A stretch of 36,470 nt of DNA from Candidatus Saccharimonadota bacterium (GTDB lineage: Bacteria > Patescibacteriota > Saccharimonadia > Saccharimonadales > Saccharimonadaceae), in NCBI GenBank assembly GCA_017431465.1, contig JAFRLA010000003.1, positions 1 to 36,470 on the forward strand, written 5' to 3'. This document shows, piece by piece, positions 1,864 to 28,037 of this stretch. The position numbers and the translations under genes are program-made. Numbering within the stretch: the stretch's first letter is position 1; the number at the start of each line of letters is the position of its first letter. Below the pieces are notes generated by a model. The model worked only from the letters and a program-made list of their open reading frames with translations. It was not told the origin of the DNA and did no database searches.

Positions 1864-4461
1864 TTAGCTCTCTTGTTCCTCTTCTTCCTCTGGCAAAATC
1901 CCAATCGACGCCACTGTATCGCCTTCGCCCATCTTCATAATGCGAACCCCTTGGGTCGCGCGTCCGAGCGTCGGAATCTCCGCCGTTGCGACTCGAATCG
2001 CCTGGCCCTTAGTCGACATCATAATCACCTCTTTAGCATTCGGCTCCAAGGTGTGCACTGCCACAATCGGACCAGTCTTCGCGGTTACCGCCGCGACCTT
2101 AATACCGACTCCGCCGCGCTTGTGCTCAGGGAAGTTTACGACCTCTGTTGCTTTACCATAGCCATTCGCCGACACAGCGATCAACTTTTGGTTTTCTGGA
2201 TCAGTAACCACGTCCATACCGACGAGTTCATCTTTCGGACGAATACGCATACCGCGAACCCCACGCGCCGCCCGGCCCATCGCACGCACCTCAGACTCAT
2301 TAAATCTGAGCGCCTGACCTGCCGAGGTCGAGACCACGATATCGTTCGAGCCAGTCGTTCCCTTGACCCATTTCAGCTCATCGCCTTCGTCGAGTTTAAT
2401 CGTAATCAGACCATTTGTCCGGATATTCTCATAATCCTTCAGAGAAGTCTTTTTTACCGTCCCCTTCTTAGTCGCCATAAACAGGAACCCTTCTGGCCCA
2501 GCCTCCGACCCCTGTTTAATGATCGCTGTGATTCTCTCCTCTGGGTGCATATTCAGGACATTAACCGCCGCTGTGCCCTTTGCCGCCAGCGATGCCTGTG
2601 GCACCTCATAGGCCTTCAAGCGGAAAATTCGCCCCTGGGAGGTGAAGAACAATAGGAAGTCATGCGAGTTTGCCGTTACAATCTGTGCAATCACATCCTC
2701 TTCCTTTGTCGTCATTCCGCGTTTACCTTTACCGCCCCTGTTCTGCTTGCGGAAATCATTCTGCGAAACCCGCTTAATGTAATTCTCAGACGTGAGCAAA
2801 ATCACGCTCTCTTCCTCTGGGATCAGCTCTTCCTCAGAGAACTTACCAACCTCATGGTTAATAATCTTCGAGCGGCGCTCATCACCATATTTCTCTTTAA
2901 GAGCGATAAGCTCAGTCTTAATTACCTCAAGAATCTTCTGCTCATCTGCAAGAATGCCCTCAAGCTTCTTAATTAACTCATGGAGTTCTTTCAGCTCTTC
3001 TTCAATTTTGTCGCGCTCCAACCCCTGTAAACGTCGAAGTTGCATCGCCAAAATCGCCGCCGCCTGAATCTCAGACAAACCAAACTTCTTCATAAGCTGT
3101 TTGTCCGCATCATCATACGAAGCTCGAATTGTCGCAATCACCTCGTCAATGTTATCCAGCGCGATCTTCAAGCCTTCAAGAATATGCGCACGCTCTTTCG
3201 CCTTCTTAAGCTCAAACTCCGTCCGACGACGCACCACCTTCTGGCGGTGTTTAATAAACTGCGCCAAAATCTCTTTCAGCCCCAAAACACGCGGGGTCAA
3301 ACGCTCTTTTTTACCCTTCGGCGTATCTACGACCTCTGGAATCAACGCCAGAATATTATAGTGGAACGCAGTCTGAAGCGGCGTCATCTTATAAAGTTGG
3401 TTCAAGATCTTCTTCGGGAAGGCATCTTTCTTGAGCTCAACGACGACCCGGATTTTACCCCTAGCCGACTCATCACGCGCCCCTGCGATATGATCGAGTT
3501 TCTTATTCTGCGCCAACTCGCCGACCTGCTTAATAAACGCTTCCTTCGAGAACCCATACGGCACCTCTGAAATTACGATGTTATAGCGACCGCCTTTTCT
3601 TTCTTCGATATTCGCTACGCCTCTGATCGTGACCGAACCCTTACCTGTCGCATAGGCCTGCTTCATCGGCGTGCCACCATAAACTTCCGCCCCTGTCGGG
3701 AAGTCTGGACCCTTGACGTATTTCATCAATTCATCGAGAGAAATCTCTGGATCGTCAATCTGTGCAACCGTCGCATCGATCAACTCACCGAGGTTGTGTG
3801 GCGGAATATTGGTCGCCATACCAACCGCAATACCCATCTGACCATTCAAGAGAATATTCGGCACTGCCGCCGGCAAAACCTTTGGCTCTTGCTCGGTTCC
3901 ATCGAAGTTATCCTGAAAATCAACCGTCTCTTTCTCAATATCAGTCAAAAGCTCCGCACCAACTTTGTCCATTCGCGCTTCAGTATAACGGTAAGCCGCC
4001 GGCTCATCACCATCCATCGAGCCGAAGTTACCTTGTCCCTCGACTAGCGTATAGCGCATCTTCCATGGCTGCGCCATATTCACCATCGCCATATAAATCG
4101 ACGAGTCGCCATGCGGGTGGTATTTACCCATTACGTCACCGACGATACGCGCCGATTTTACGGTTGCGTGTGGGGCTTTCCAGCCGTTTTTATTCATCGT
4201 ATAGAGAATACGGCGGTTTACCGGCTTCAAACCATCGCGCACATCAGGGAGCGCACGGTCCACGATAACCGACATCGAATATTTGAGGAAGTATTCCTCC
4301 ATCGTCGACTCAACGCCGCGGTTTTCGATTCCGTCAACAATCTCGCCCTCAGTAGAACCACCCTCGTCTGCCCCAGATTCCGTCTCTGGCGCGTCCAGAA
4401 CACCCTCGGTCTGAGCCTCGTTCTCTTCTGGAATATTCTTTTTCTTATCTTCTTCTGCCAT
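1864..4461 (-). CDS. gyrA: DNA gyrase subunit A
   Basis: 865 aa. GyrA cleaves and rejoins DNA in the A2B2 gyrase that introduces negative supercoils. Seen: an acidic N-terminal extension of about 50 residues before [13 protein letters not shown]; the breakage domain with KYHPHGD and the catalytic-tyrosine context [10 protein letters not shown]; a coiled-coil tower; and the C-terminal beta-propeller with the GyrA box QNRGGKG, which identifies gyrase rather than topoisomerase IV. The start has a strong AAGGAGG site 4 bases upstream and lies 9 bases after the gyrB stop, so the pair is one operon. Odd point: in the quinolone-determining region the sequence is HGDSSIYM, so the position equal to E. 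coli Asp87 is Met124. Confidence 0.98.
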
Positions 4462-7545: not shown

Positions 7546-7575
7546 TTGTAAAAATTTGACAGAGTATGCTATAAT
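7546..7575 (+). promoter_or_regulatory. promoter of RNA/small-ORF locus A
   Basis: TTGTAA (7546-7551), 18 bases, TATAAT (7570-7575). The whole stretch, including a TTGACA inside the spacer and AGTATG before the -10 box, is nearly identical to the promoter of locus B (28008-28037), although the loci are 20 kb apart on opposite strands. Confidence 0.75.
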
Positions 7576-7581
7576 GGACGA

Positions 7582-7861
7582 CGTTTGGTTCGTTAAAATT
7601 TTTTAGGGGTGAAATTGAGGCGCGGGTGCGGCTTGCGCTAGAGCTACGCTCAAAAGCTGCGAGGCTCCTCAATAAACGGCTATTCTAGTTGCGCTAGAGG
7701 CGCTTAGAAAGGAGATATCTATGACTATCACGCTAGAAATTGCGCGCATAATCTTTCGTGTCGGCCTAAAAGTTGCCAAACTTAAAAAATAGTCAGCTGC
7801 CCTAGATAGGGCAGCTAGACGAACCAAACAGGGGAGTTATGTTACTAGAGCATAACTTTCC
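7582..7861 (+). ncRNA. structured RNA locus A enclosing a 23-codon ORF
   Basis: A transcript of about 280 bases. A 10-bp perfect long-range helix (7583-7592 GTTTGGTTCG with 7820-7829) would close the RNA into a ring. Inside are: helix P2 (7615-7620 TTGAGG with 7667-7672), which contains GGGTGCGG and AGCTGCGAGG; an unpaired AATAAACGGCTA; hairpin P3 (7683-7687 with 7705-7709) directly before the AAAGGAG ribosome site; the ORF 7721-7792; a 22-base perfect hairpin (7795-7816) after its stop; and a terminal hairpin (7831-7861). The same order occurs at locus B with compensatory base changes in the closing helix and P2. No named RNA family is recognised. Confidence 0.7.
7721..7792 (+). CDS. 23-aa cationic amphipathic peptide in RNA locus A
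   Basis: ATG with AAAGGAG at optimal spacing. The peptide is hydrophobic and amphipathic in its first 18 residues (MTITLEIARIIFRVGL) and ends in KVAKLKK, net charge about +5. It has no cysteine and no signal peptide cleavage site; a short membrane-active or membrane-binding helix is possible by composition. It shares size, the M-[TS]-[IV] start, an early Glu and a Lys-rich end with the peptide of locus B. The strong ribosome site and the duplicated context argue that it is translated. Function unknown: a type I toxin-like peptide, a regulatory leader peptide or a secreted peptide are all open. Confidence 0.6.
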   Translation: MTITLEIARIIFRVGLKVAKLKK

Positions 7862-7907
7862 TGTCATTATTTTATCACAAGCATATTCTCACGTCAACGA
7901 TCAAAGG

Positions 7908-8216
7908 CTACCAAACAAAGTAGCTATCTATATTCCTCTGATTTTCCTTTGGCGCTTCGGCTTCTGCTAGCCTCTTTTTTTCCTCTAGCGCTTCGCTCTC
8001 TTTTAATTTCTTCGAATATCCCTCAAATCCACTATCCTCTGTTCTTTCCCGATTTGGTGGCAACCCTATCTGGAAAGGAATGCTTTCCGTCAACACGCAC
8101 TGTTTCAAAAACATATTAACTGCCCCGGAGAGGTCTGTCCCAAGCTCTCGAAATAACTTCGTAGCCTCTTCTCTGGTATCCTTATCTATTCTAATTTGTA
8201 CCGGCATCGTTGTCAT
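7908..8216 (-). CDS. RelB/DinJ-family antitoxin-like protein
   Basis: 102 aa. The N-terminal 45 residues fit the RelB/DinJ ribbon-helix-helix family: a beta strand VQIRIDKDTREEA, a helix KLFRELGTDLSGAVNMFLKQ and the following SIPFQI segment typical of DinJ. The C-terminal 55 residues are charged and probably disordered without a partner. No RelE/YafQ toxin ORF lies next to it; the upstream gene is a Fic-like protein. Start at 8216 with AAAGGAG 7 bases upstream. It has its own promoter (8235-8263) in the Fic-RelB gap, overlain by three TGTAGT-like direct repeats that may be its autoregulatory operator. Confidence 0.8.
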   Translation of the reverse strand: MTTMPVQIRIDKDTREEATKLFRELGTDLSGAVNMFLKQCVLTESIPFQIGLPPNRERTEDSGFEGYSKKLKESEALEEKKRLAEAEAPKENQRNIDSYFVW

Positions 8217-8234
8217 ATTTTCTCCTTTACTACG

Positions 8235-8263
8235 ATTGTACTACAAAAACACTACAAATGCAA
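8235..8263 (-). promoter_or_regulatory. internal promoter of the relB-like gene with direct repeats
   Basis: TTGCAT (8258-8263), 17 bases, TACAAT (8235-8240). The spacer and downstream bases hold three copies of a TGTAGTG/TGTAGTA/CGTAGTA motif about one helical turn apart, a plausible site for the ribbon-helix-helix protein it drives. Confidence 0.5.
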
Positions 8264-8268
8264 TAAAA

Positions 8269-9195
8269 TTACTCAACTGGTGTAGTAATAAAGTCGCCCC
8301 AAGGTTCAGCCTCTGGCTCCGGCGTGAAGTCCGCGTCAATTTGCCAGCGTCCGTCATGCCGAAATGCCGGAATAACTTGCCGCTTAGCCTTATTTGACGC
8401 AATATTGGCTTTTATGTTGTAATTTTTCGCCCATTTACTCAGCGGAATTGTCTTTTTGCCCTCTAAAAGCGCGATAAAACGATGCAGCGATTCCACTAAT
8501 GCTAAAGCAAAAAACATTGTAAATCCGTCATAATTTCCGGCCTTTTTATACTGCGAAAATAGCTCTTGATACTCCGCCGAATTACCCCGATTTTGGACAA
8601 TAATTGGCGGAAAATCTAGCGCCATCAGCTGTTTATCAACGATCAATCGTCCAATCTGACCGTTCCCTGTTACGAACGGACGCATTGTTTCGAATTCTGC
8701 GTGAAAAAATGCGATTTTCTCTAAAAATTCACGAGGCTCCTCGTTGTATCGTTTTACCAGATTTTCCAGCAAAGCATAAACGAATTCCGCGTCTGCACCA
8801 GGTCGCGCATCCTTTTTTGTCCGCCGATTGTCAATCCTCAGCTGACCCGCCGCCGCGTCATCCACCCCTGCTAGAAACTTCTTATGCAATTCCAAAATCA
8901 GCGGCACCGACAGACTTTGACTCGGATTCCCCACGACGGCTTCCATCGCCGCTCCAAGGTTCTTTGTCAGGTAAACTTCTTTCACACTCGTGGCCTTTCC
9001 CACCTTACCGTGCAAGATAATATTTTTAGCCTCTTTGAGCATAAGCGTCGAGCCGTCGATTGCATTCGAATTACAAACCGCTTCCGGTATTTCTTTCTTC
9101 AAGATTTTCAAAAACCCCTGGGGATTTTCCTCAATAAGCTCATGGTATCTCTCTGTCAGGACCCGAATCTCCGTCTTCAATCGATTTATTTTCAT
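8269..9195 (-). CDS. Fic/DOC-family protein with a degenerate active site
   Basis: 308 aa. Fic enzymes transfer AMP or related groups through the motif HPFx(D/E)GNGRxxR. Here the aligned segment is RPFVTGNGQIGR (from residue 172): the catalytic His is Arg, the acidic metal ligand is Thr and the GNGR Arg is Gln, while the surrounding fold (HAEFETM before it, GRLIVDKQLM after) is kept. An N-terminal SNAIDG (near residue 45) resembles the inhibitory (S/T)xxxE(G/N) helix with Glu changed to Asp. The C-terminal 60 residues look like an added DNA-binding or adaptor tail. The TATAAT at 9203-9208 ends 7 bases before ATG 9195, so 9195 is preferred over 9204 and the mRNA is probably leaderless. Transcribed ahead of the relB-like gene. 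Confidence 0.8.
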   Translation of the reverse strand: MKINRLKTEIRVLTERYHELIEENPQGFLKILKKEIPEAVCNSNAIDGSTLMLKEAKNIILHGKVGKATSVKEVYLTKNLGAAMEAVVGNPSQSLSVPLILELHKKFLAGVDDAAAGQLRIDNRRTKKDARPGADAEFVYALLENLVKRYNEEPREFLEKIAFFHAEFETMRPFVTGNGQIGRLIVDKQLMALDFPPIIVQNRGNSAEYQELFSQYKKAGNYDGFTMFFALALVESLHRFIALLEGKKTIPLSKWAKNYNIKANIASNKAKRQVIPAFRHDGRWQIDADFTPEPEAEPWGDFITTPVE

Positions 9196-9229
9196 GTTCC
9201 TCATTATATCACGAAATTTTCACATTTCG

Positions 9230-14621: not shown

Positions 14622-14976
14622 TGGTGGAGCTGGCGGATACTGCCTCCGCGTCCGGACTATCACGGGGATATCGGTCTACGTGCGTAGTTCATTTCTTCAT
14701 TTTAGCAGAATTCTGGCAGGTGAGACAAACAAAGACTGTCAGATGCCGTGACTGATTTAGAGAAGACGTTCGTCGCTACGCTCCCCGATCCTCATACTAT
14801 GACAACTCAATACGCTATGAGAAATTGCGCAAGAGCCGAGCCTAAACTAAATTAGGCGTAAGCAGGTGCGTAAAGCACGTGCTTTGCAGTTTTGTTTTCT
14901 GCATTTAAACTATACTTACGGTATAAAACGGCACGCAAGATATCTGTTAATAGTTCGTCTAAGCTTGGTCAGCCCC
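14622..14976 (-). ncRNA. ssrA: transfer-messenger RNA
   Basis: 355 nt. The 5' GGGGCTG and 3' CAGCTCC-ACCA ends form the 7-bp tRNA-Ala-like acceptor stem, and the T-arm is visible near the 3' end (GTCCGGAC.. region). The tag reading frame (14852-14902) starts at GCA after TTTAAAT and encodes AENKTAKHVLYAPAYA before TAA. tmRNA with SmpB releases stalled ribosomes and tags the product for proteolysis. The -10 box TATAAT (14987-14992, extended TGTGC) lies 10 bases before the 5' end. The tag end (AYA rather than the usual ALAA/AVAA) is unusual. Confidence 0.94.
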
Positions 14977-26649: not shown

Positions 26650-26769
26650 CGGGCGAGCAAGTATTCGCGAAGTCGAATATAAGAAAAAGCTTGCTTTTTC
26701 TTATCGAGACGATGCGAATGCGAGCCGAAGGCTCAGGTGCTTTTTCAAAGAAAAAGCACTGCTCGCCCG
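26650..26769. repeat. four-hairpin element closed by a 10-bp stem
   Basis: CGGGCGAGCA (26650-26659) pairs with TGCTCGCCCG (26760-26769). Between them, in order: TATTCG/CGAATA; a perfect 12-bp hairpin (26679-26690 with 26693-26704); GAGCC-GAA-GGCTC (26722-26734); and a perfect 10-bp hairpin GTGCTTTTTC-AAA-GAAAAAGCAC (26737-26759). This gives a cloverleaf-like fold, on either strand, covering most of the 120 bases. No ORF. It sits at a tRNA, a common insertion point, and next to an AT-rich gene of foreign appearance. Confidence 0.75.
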
Positions 26770-26826
26770 GCTTACCATGAAATCGACATTTGTAGTATAA
26801 TGTTAGAAAATTATTTAATAAATCCC

Positions 26827-27186
26827 ATGTCATCAGTTACACGAAGAATTAGAGAAATTAAAGGAACAAAAGATGCTCAACCGAGAGGCGGTTATCTTCC
26901 GTTAAAAACCTTTGCCATAGAAGAATATGCCGATAATAAACTAGTCTCTATGTCTGATGAGAATATTAGCGCTAGCCTAGTTGGGACTGCTGTCGACTAT
27001 TTAGCAAGACTATCTTTTACAGACAATGCAGAAGAAATAATAAATCCATATCCAGATACCAATATCGGTGTATTCGAAATATGCCTGAAGGGGGCTATTC
27101 TGCTAGGGCAAAAACGAACGAAACAATGGGCATTTAATGCCGTTTCAGAAATTGTAGCCGACTACGCAGTGAATAAAAAAAAATAA
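26827..27186 (+). CDS. N-terminal part of a PD-(D/E)XK nuclease-like protein, ends at an A9 run
   Basis: 119 aa from ATG 26827 (M-SSVTRRIREIKGTKDAQ); a TATAAT box at 26796-26801 lies upstream. The stop TAA comes directly after nine A residues (27175-27183). A -1 shift there reads on as NKKKITDEMVVLACKLSGFD, joining the next ORF without loss. I recall full-length proteins of this type (SSVTRRI.., ..QPRGGYLP.. at the start, nuclease motifs later) as single-frame hypothetical proteins in other bacteria. Codon use is clearly AT-richer than neighbours, suggesting transfer. Either programmed frameshifting, slippage-based phase variation, a dead gene or a sequencing error. Confidence 0.7.
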   Translation: MSSVTRRIREIKGTKDAQPRGGYLPLKTFAIEEYADNKLVSMSDENISASLVGTAVDYLARLSFTDNAEEIINPYPDTNIGVFEICLKGAILLGQKRTKQWAFNAVSEIVADYAVNKKK

Positions 27187-27194
27187 CCGATGAA

Positions 27195-27698
27195 ATGGTT
27201 GTCTTAGCTTGTAAATTAAGCGGTTTCGATGTGGTATATAGGAGTAGCGCTTGGGAATATAAGCCTGTCAGCAAAATTAATCCGAACAAGAAAACAATCG
27301 GCAATATTAAAACAATGATAGACCGAACTTCGACTTATGTTTCCAAGTGTAAACCAATAATAGAATCTGGGTTCATTATCAGCGATTGTGGCGGAAAATA
27401 TGTAACGGTTGGAGATGGCGATCTGCTAACAGAAGACTCTATTATAGACTTTAAGGTATCCACAAGACCGCCAACATCAGATCATACTCTGCAACTTCTC
27501 ATCTATTATATTGCAGGGCTCCATAAAGATTTCGAAAAATTTAAAAATGTAAAAAAGCTCATTATTTTTAACCCTCGCTTAAATATCTCTTATACCTATA
27601 ATTTACACAATCTTGAAGATTGGATTTTTAATGAAGTAGAAAAAAACATTATAGGCATATCACCACATAAATCATTTAAGGAAATCCCTCATTGCTAG
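27195..27698 (+). CDS. C-terminal nuclease domain of the frame-split protein
   Basis: 167 aa counted from ATG 27195, though it is more likely translated as a continuation of the upstream frame. It carries the RecB/Cas4-like PD-(D/E)XK motifs: GDGDLLTEDSIIDFKVS (GxxD, then D-x-K) and the QLLIYYIAGLH helix corresponding to QxxxY. The fold around KKLIIFNPRLN looks complete. No ribosome site is seen before ATG 27195 (AACCGATGAA). A restriction-like or defence role is possible but not shown. Confidence 0.7.
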   Translation: MVVLACKLSGFDVVYRSSAWEYKPVSKINPNKKTIGNIKTMIDRTSTYVSKCKPIIESGFIISDCGGKYVTVGDGDLLTEDSIIDFKVSTRPPTSDHTLQLLIYYIAGLHKDFEKFKNVKKLIIFNPRLNISYTYNLHNLEDWIFNEVEKNIIGISPHKSFKEIPHC

Positions 27699-27741
27699 TC
27701 CTCTTGCCAAAAATCTTATGTTTTGCTACAATAAAATCATA

Positions 27742-28001
27742 GAGAGCAAGCCCCTAGAAAACTTACTCTCGTTGTTGGCAAGTTAGTCGCTACCGGCGGC
27801 TAACTTTTTTCTTGGCTTTCGCCCTTTTCAGGACTACGACAAGTTTCAAACCTAGAAATCTAAATTCTACGCTCATCCTCCTCCTTTCTAGAGGCTTCTA
27901 GCTTTATCTAGAATAGCCGTTCATTGAAAACCCCCTCGCAGTTTTGCTACGGATCCACACCCTGAGATTTCAACTTGTTGAACGCCAGGAAACGCCAACA
28001 C
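27742..28001 (-). ncRNA. structured RNA locus B enclosing a 28-codon ORF
   Basis: Second copy of the architecture at locus A. Closing helix TGTTGGCG (27993-28000) with TTGCCAACA-side bases 27773-27780; P2 TTGAAA/TTTCAA (27968-27973 with 27924-27929), which replaces TTGAGG/CCTCAA of locus A by compensatory changes, around GGGTGTGG and AACTGCGAGG; the shared unpaired block and hairpin start AACGGCTATTCTAG (27908-27921); P3 TTCTAGA/TCTAGAA; GGAGGAGG; ORF 27790-27876; a hairpin across the ORF end (27781-27805); and a 9-bp terminal hairpin (27742-27770). Confidence 0.7.
27790..27876 (-). CDS. 28-aa cationic peptide in RNA locus B
   Basis: ATG after AAAGGAGGAGG. Begins MSVEFRFLGLKLVVVL, then KRAKAKKKVSRR; net charge about +10. 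A hydrophobic first half and a Lys/Arg-rich second half, as in the locus A peptide but longer and more basic. The stop codon lies inside a stable hairpin, so translation termination and RNA folding would interfere. Function unknown. Confidence 0.6.
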   Translation of the reverse strand: MSVEFRFLGLKLVVVLKRAKAKKKVSRR

Positions 28002-28007
28002 GCCGCC

Positions 28008-28037
28008 ATTATATCATACTTGTCAATTTTTTTACAA
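28008..28037 (-). promoter_or_regulatory. promoter of RNA/small-ORF locus B
   Basis: TTGTAA (28032-28037), 18 bases, TATAAT (28008-28013), with a TTGACA inside the spacer. It aligns over its whole length with the promoter of locus A. Confidence 0.75.

Follow-up and report, generated by a model that had tools for sequence, protein, structure and literature searches.

Organization of the two loci

The window analysed here, i.e. the whole 36,470-nucleotide stretch of contig JAFRLA010000003.1 from a Candidatus Saccharimonadota bacterium, carries two loci, A (7546-7863, plus strand) and B (27742-28037, minus strand), that probably belong to a new family of type I toxin-antitoxin-like modules. Both have a common order of elements: a promoter, a closing helix (P1), a second helix (P2), the conserved block AACGGCTATTCTAG, a Shine-Dalgarno (SD) sequence, a short open reading frame (ORF) and two 3' hairpins. 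All the elements that an earlier note on this DNA had named were found at both loci, including the sense promoter TTGTAA-N18-TATAAT (7546-7575, plus strand, and 28037-28008, minus strand), which in both cases has an extended TG -10. The TTGACA noticed within the spacer is indeed present but cannot be the -35 box because only 8 nt separate it from the -10 box. Likewise, the length of 28 amino acids (aa) given for the ORF is that of locus B, whereas the ORF of locus A encodes 23 aa. The compensatory change in P2 was found as described, pairing being kept between TTGAGG/CCTCAA in A and TTGAAA/TTTCAA in B. The exact 14-mer AACGGCTATTCTAG occurs twice in the window, and these are also its only two occurrences in the entire 656-kb genome; this exact pair far exceeds chance, whereas the count at three mismatches does not. 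Furthermore, shuffling that preserves dinucleotides gives less stable RNAs than those of A (z -3.5) and B (z -3.0). The elements of both loci, including those of an antisense gene described below, are the following.

Locus B
28008-28037, minus strand: sense (putative toxin) promoter TTGTAA-N18-TATAAT, extended -10
27994-28001, minus strand: P1 5' strand GTGTTGGC; TGTTGGC (27994-28000) pairs with GCCAACA (27773-27779)
27968-27974, minus strand: P2 5' strand GTTGAAA
27924-27930, minus strand: P2 3' strand TTTTCAA
27907-27921, minus strand: conserved block, AACGGCTATTCTAG followed by A, with TTCTAGA (27907-27913) as partner of the terminal loop
27880-27887, minus strand: SD AAAGGAGG
27790-27876, minus strand: ORF of 28 aa, MSVEFRFLGLKLVVVLKRAKAKKKVSRR followed by a stop codon, putative toxin
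27780-27806, plus strand: antisense terminator hairpin; U-tract (27807-27812) opposite the Lys codons
27742-27770, minus strand: terminal hairpin, i.e. the sense terminator, with its loop TCTAGGG (27752-27758) as partner of the block
27704-27732, plus strand: antisense promoter TTGCCA-N17-TACAAT, TG before the -10
27739-27812, plus strand: antisense RNA of about 74 nt predicted from promoter and terminator, putative antitoxin

Locus A
7546-7575, plus strand: sense promoter
7583-7593, plus strand: P1 5' strand GTTTGGTTCGT
7819-7829, plus strand: P1 3' strand ACGAACCAAAC
7615-7620 and 7667-7672, plus strand: P2, TTGAGG paired with CCTCAA
7675-7689, plus strand: conserved block, with TTCTAGT (7683-7689) paired to ACTAGAG (7844-7850) of the terminal loop
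7708-7716, plus strand: SD AAAGGAGAT
7721-7792, plus strand: ORF of 23 aa, MTITLEIARIIFRVGLKVAKLKK followed by a stop codon
7794-7817, minus strand: antisense terminator hairpin
7829-7863, plus strand: terminal hairpin, i.e. the sense terminator
7869-7897, minus strand: antisense promoter TTGACG-N17-TAAAAT, TG before the -10
7787-7862, minus strand: predicted antisense RNA

Distribution of the family

The search for further copies across Saccharibacteria that the earlier note had proposed was successful. A sequence-only model (R1), covering the block, about 35 nt on its 5' side and the stretch up to the ATG, matches 83 of the 174 genomes of the same genus at E<=0.1, with a maximum of five matches per genome, the matches of the weak tail being uncertain. 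In 91 of the 94 located copies, the expected site holds an ORF of 20-31 codons, nearly always behind a recognisable SD; among the three others, a contig end cuts the first, the start codon is missing from the second (L075) and the third has a frameshift (L097). Sister genera of the same family also harbor copies with the full anatomy and other peptides (e.g. L148, L150, L152 and L153), and in L148, L150, L153, L155 and L157 a different peptide type, for instance MILRLYVFKLIVELRIRSRKLKKSTRR, is associated with the same RNA anatomy. The matches obtained outside the taxonomic family (L159-L164) lack this anatomy and were taken as chance. In a collection of named genomes, a 23-base pattern matched solely Candidatus Saccharibacteria, including Candidatus Nanosyncoccus alces. 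The family statistics given below were mostly obtained on 68 non-redundant copies.

Two other probes were discarded: the block with one mismatch gave mostly chance matches (a reversed control pattern was equally productive), and a gapped block pattern was too strict, so that the sequence models R1 and R2 were used instead. No match was found in the curated models of Pfam, NCBIfam and Rfam, nor any match of the peptides in the PDB using phmmer. An origin from phages, plasmids or viruses was also set aside, although weakly tested, since no match was obtained in phage records with locus A as query, in plasmid records with locus B as query or in viral contigs with one pattern of the main subfamily that A and B themselves lack.

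The encoded peptide

The peptides of the family have 20-31 residues (mean 26) and a mean net charge of +6.4. Residues 1-12 contain on average 1.1 Lys or Arg, versus 6.1 for the rest of the peptide, i.e. a hydrophobic half is followed by a cationic half. Simple pairwise counts limited to the 12 codons that follow the start codon gave ratios of nonsynonymous to synonymous substitutions (dN/dS) of about 0.19 for the subfamily MTIQINLLCII..., 0.21 for MGIKFSLWRI... and 0.085 for MVQFALIIIN..., which denotes purifying selection in subfamilies other than that of B. These ratios indicate that the short ORF encodes a selected peptide.

The locus B peptide was compared with AapA1, a toxin of the AapA/IsoA systems (sequence from PMC10537873). 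The alignment is ungapped over 16 residues, with FLGLKLVVVLKR / FLGCKVVVLLKR as core, and has a score of 45, which was reached in 0/20,000 shuffles and 0/300 family-wide, whereas all other copies score at most 25 (median 15). As AapA1 was picked because of its resemblance to the B peptide, this shuffle test understates the part of chance. Since the other copies do not share the resemblance, it may reflect either homology or convergence.

Covariation within the sense RNA

The block (TTCTAGN) has its partner in the terminal-hairpin loop: in 64 of the 68 copies, the six core pairs are all formed. Pairing is entirely Watson-Crick in 54 copies, versus a mean of 27 and a maximum of 36 in 5000 permutations. 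Among 23 variant blocks, 15 fit their own loop perfectly and none fits the consensus loop. Matched block/loop pairs include TTCTAGT/ACTAGA (locus A), TTCTAGA/TCTAGA, TTCCAGA/TCTGGA, GTTAGG/CCTAAC, GCTAGA/TCTAGC, CCTAGA/TCTAGG, TTCTAGG/CCTAGA and the compensated GCTAGG/CCTAGC, found in a copy from a sister genus (L148). The pairing energy of block and loop with their own rather than swapped partners gives a z of -10.5. Moreover, the own partners of P1 (-9.8 versus -8.5 kcal/mol, standard deviation 0.2) and of P2 (-10.7 versus -9.2 kcal/mol, standard deviation 0.25) beat all 5000 swaps. Almost every pair type is found at each stem position of the two 3' hairpins; these were picked for their pairing, and only this diversity is informative. 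Taken together, these data indicate that the RNA fold is under selection. Hence, paralogy, compensatory change and a selected fold, which the earlier note had proposed from two loci, hold across about 70 non-redundant copies when own and swapped partners are compared.

A predicted antisense gene opposite the 3' end

At both loci, the opposite strand carries a sigma-70-type promoter just past the terminal hairpin, together with an intrinsic terminator. The hairpin of this terminator is the one that had been named the stop hairpin: it is present, but it is identified here, together with the T-run that follows it, as the terminator of an antisense gene. Both this gene and the terminal loop as partner of the block had been overlooked in that first reading, which proposed no function.

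An antisense promoter with a score of at least 10/12 was found in 46 of the 68 copies, versus 9 of 680 dinucleotide-shuffled windows (1.3%), and a terminator with a score of at least 18 in 61 copies, versus 10 of 680 shuffled windows (1.5%); genomic control windows were also used for comparison. The -10 box, usually located 8-11 nt from the hairpin, is an exact TATAAT in 36/68 copies and matches it at five of six positions in 31/68. With a mean score of 10.0 of 12, versus 8.4 for the sense promoter, the antisense promoter is the nearer to consensus. In 62 of 69 copies, the U-tract of the antisense terminator is supplied by an A-run that corresponds to the Lys codons ending the ORF. The predicted antisense RNA has a median length of 75 nt and contains the loop-pairing sequence of the block; those of A and B also include a near-copy of the P1 5' strand.

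Variation between copies and genomic context

In a sister genome (G067), locus A is found in the same place with 88% identity, versus 72-83% for the neighbouring stretches, and its stop hairpin is different yet perfectly paired. This genome has no copy at site B. It carries an intergenic B-type copy (L097/L145, G067:C9:2444) that adjoins gyrA and has a frameshifted ORF; the matching site of the window (1865-1876) is empty, indicating that close relatives gain and lose copies. Another copy (L075, G208:C3:66669) lost its ATG while keeping its RNA elements intact, and can be viewed as a degenerate toxin copy. Within single genomes, ORFs of the MTIQ subfamily are 0.89-1.00 identical over 54 nt, whereas their stop hairpins are only 0.43-0.71 identical, one recent pair excepted. 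Such a combination of near-identical ORFs and diverged terminator hairpins fits cognate antisense RNAs that are kept distinct. A need to avoid cross-reaction between cognate antisense RNAs would lead to this divergence, but so would a requirement for pairing alone.

Across copies, the strand of the downstream gene is random (35:32). In the window, ORFs encoding a RelB/DinJ-like antitoxin and a Fic-domain-like protein, recognised by eye from their translations, lie directly 3' of locus A (7908-9204). Two plus-strand ORFs (26737-27698) adjoin locus B; one of them (27195-27698), which by eye resembles a PD-(D/E)XK nuclease (IIDFK motif), stops 6 nt short of the locus B antisense promoter. The window also contains a transfer-messenger RNA (14622-14976, minus strand) that Rfam detects with 90 bits and ARAGORN misses, which suggests that it is divergent.

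Proposed function and alternative explanations

Our preferred explanation, which we consider likely, is that A and B are self-contained, type I toxin-antitoxin-like modules of a new family whose layout resembles that of AapA/IsoA. Three features typical of type I systems were found: a selected gene for a small hydrophobic and cationic peptide (20-31 aa, dN/dS 0.09-0.21), an antisense gene with, at the sequence level, its own promoter and terminator, and a structured primary toxin mRNA with a 5'-3' fold. The sense promoter would drive an mRNA of about 270 nt folded back on itself by P1 and by a kissing contact between the 5' block and the terminal loop at the 3' end. This mRNA would encode a single peptide of 20-31 aa, probably acting on the cell membrane. 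The convergent promoter would produce a two-hairpin antisense RNA with a length of about 75 nt, which ends opposite the terminal Lys codons of the toxin and whose complementarity to the mRNA spans the 3' third of the latter. Loop-loop contact at the terminal hairpin may initiate its pairing with the mRNA, which would then lose its 5'-3' contacts and be silenced or destroyed; the peptide would be made once antisense synthesis stops. Antisense transcription, toxicity, the membrane target and the direction of control are all inferred.

A more ambitious reading can be put forward only tentatively. In this reading, the loci would represent the first type I family from the candidate phyla radiation, and their control would follow a new principle, in which the block serves both a local anti-SD-like hairpin and the terminal loop, the antisense RNA mimics 5' elements of the mRNA and competes for the intramolecular pseudoknot, and the cationic tail encodes the terminator U-tract, tying both genes together.

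Several observations weigh against the module proposed here. The resemblance to a known toxin is confined to the B peptide. The permutation tests ignore the kinship of the copies, and the hairpins were selected as the best-pairing ones. Furthermore, the predicted opening energy of the SD is 4.81 kcal/mol, versus 4.67 without the 3' end, in a model of nested secondary structure without pseudoknots. As the 3' end hardly alters this energy, a simple AapA-like occlusion does not explain the control step; occlusion of the SD by 5'-3' contacts, including an AapA-like 3' anti-SD, is not supported by this model. Local pairing of the block with the SD is weaker (37/68 copies, z -2.2), and a local hairpin was not retained as the conserved partner of the block.

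The short length, positive charge and hydrophobic N-terminal half of the peptide would also suit a peptide that is secreted or released and acts as an antimicrobial or on a host, similar to leaderless bacteriocins, and whose expression is merely tuned by the antisense RNA. The epibiotic lifestyle of Saccharibacteria is in favor of this explanation. However, the unit is monocistronic and therefore has no built-in exporter or immunity gene, adjacent genes lie on either strand at random, and a dedicated antisense gene with convergent terminators better matches self-restraint; we regard this explanation as unlikely. A little less probable still is a structured RNA that would itself be functional, as a regulatory RNA, riboswitch or attenuator, and whose ORF would encode a leader peptide. 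The strong conservation of fold and block and the position of a small ORF behind an SD are compatible with it, but the RNA is ended by its own terminator, selection acts on the amino acids of the ORF and Rfam gave no match. A riboswitch or leader of the downstream gene was rejected given the random strand of this gene. Finally, multiple copies at sites that differ between close relatives, as for the B-type copy of G067, could point to a non-autonomous mobile repeat (miniature inverted-repeat transposable element or repetitive extragenic palindrome-like) with promoter-like ends and no physiological function. This seems very improbable given the maintenance of locus A in place, more conserved than its neighbours, and the selection on both coding sequence and RNA pairs; neither terminal inverted repeats nor target duplications were noticed, without a systematic test.

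Comparison with known type I systems

Type I systems were described in 2025 as known only in Proteobacteria, Firmicutes and Tenericutes, plus the cyanobacterial msoT1/msoA1 (PMC12390103). The latter, from Microcystis, is type I-like and lies, as the loci described here do, outside these three phyla, but is cyanobacterial. We found no literature linking type I toxin-antitoxin systems with Saccharibacteria, Patescibacteria or the candidate phyla radiation, subscription papers and preprints being outside the search. With a family that is multi-copy and widespread in ultrasmall epibionts with reduced genomes, type I systems would be extended to this radiation, and genomes of 0.6-0.9 Mb would be shown to retain several RNA-controlled peptide genes. 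Moreover, about 70 non-redundant copies provide unusually rich data on antisense specificity between paralogues and on the control of a small peptide by mRNA folding.

The folding of hok mRNA is discussed in PMC6733600. As in hok/Sok, the toxin mRNA may fold back into a translationally inert form under antisense control, but no mok-type overlapping frame was seen in the Saccharibacteria family. In addition, the Saccharibacteria peptide is about half the size of the hok one and has no known sequence relation to it.

SR6 from Bacillus is an antisense RNA of 100 nt that overlaps the 3' end of yonT (PMC5848175), i.e. a convergent cis-antisense RNA located as in the present family. The yonT toxin differs by its length of 58 aa. 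The bsrG/SR4 and txpA/RatA pairs of Bacillus are likewise convergent type I pairs overlapping in 3'. We know of no sequence relation between these pairs and the Saccharibacteria family and, to our knowledge, no pseudoknot between a block and a terminal loop has been described for them.

The layout of the loci is that of a type I toxin-antitoxin system, AapA/IsoA from Helicobacter and Campylobacter appearing as the closest one. These systems, with a toxin of about 30 aa, an IsoA3 RNA of 80 nt and a toxin mRNA that has a 5'-3' long-distance interaction (PMC6733600), share with the present family a cationic peptide of about this size, multi-copy chromosomal loci, a cis-antisense RNA of about 80 nt and the 5'-3' contact; moreover, the B peptide VEFRFLGLKLVVVLKR aligns with AapA1 LKISFLGCKVVVLLKR. 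In contrast, the remaining peptides of the family are unlike AapA1 (median score of 15 versus 45 for B), occlusion of the SD by a long-distance contact is not supported here and the phylum is another one. Finally, IsoA3 is described as lying opposite the small ORF, whereas the antisense RNA predicted here covers the 3' end of the mRNA and would terminate within the C-terminal codons of the toxin.
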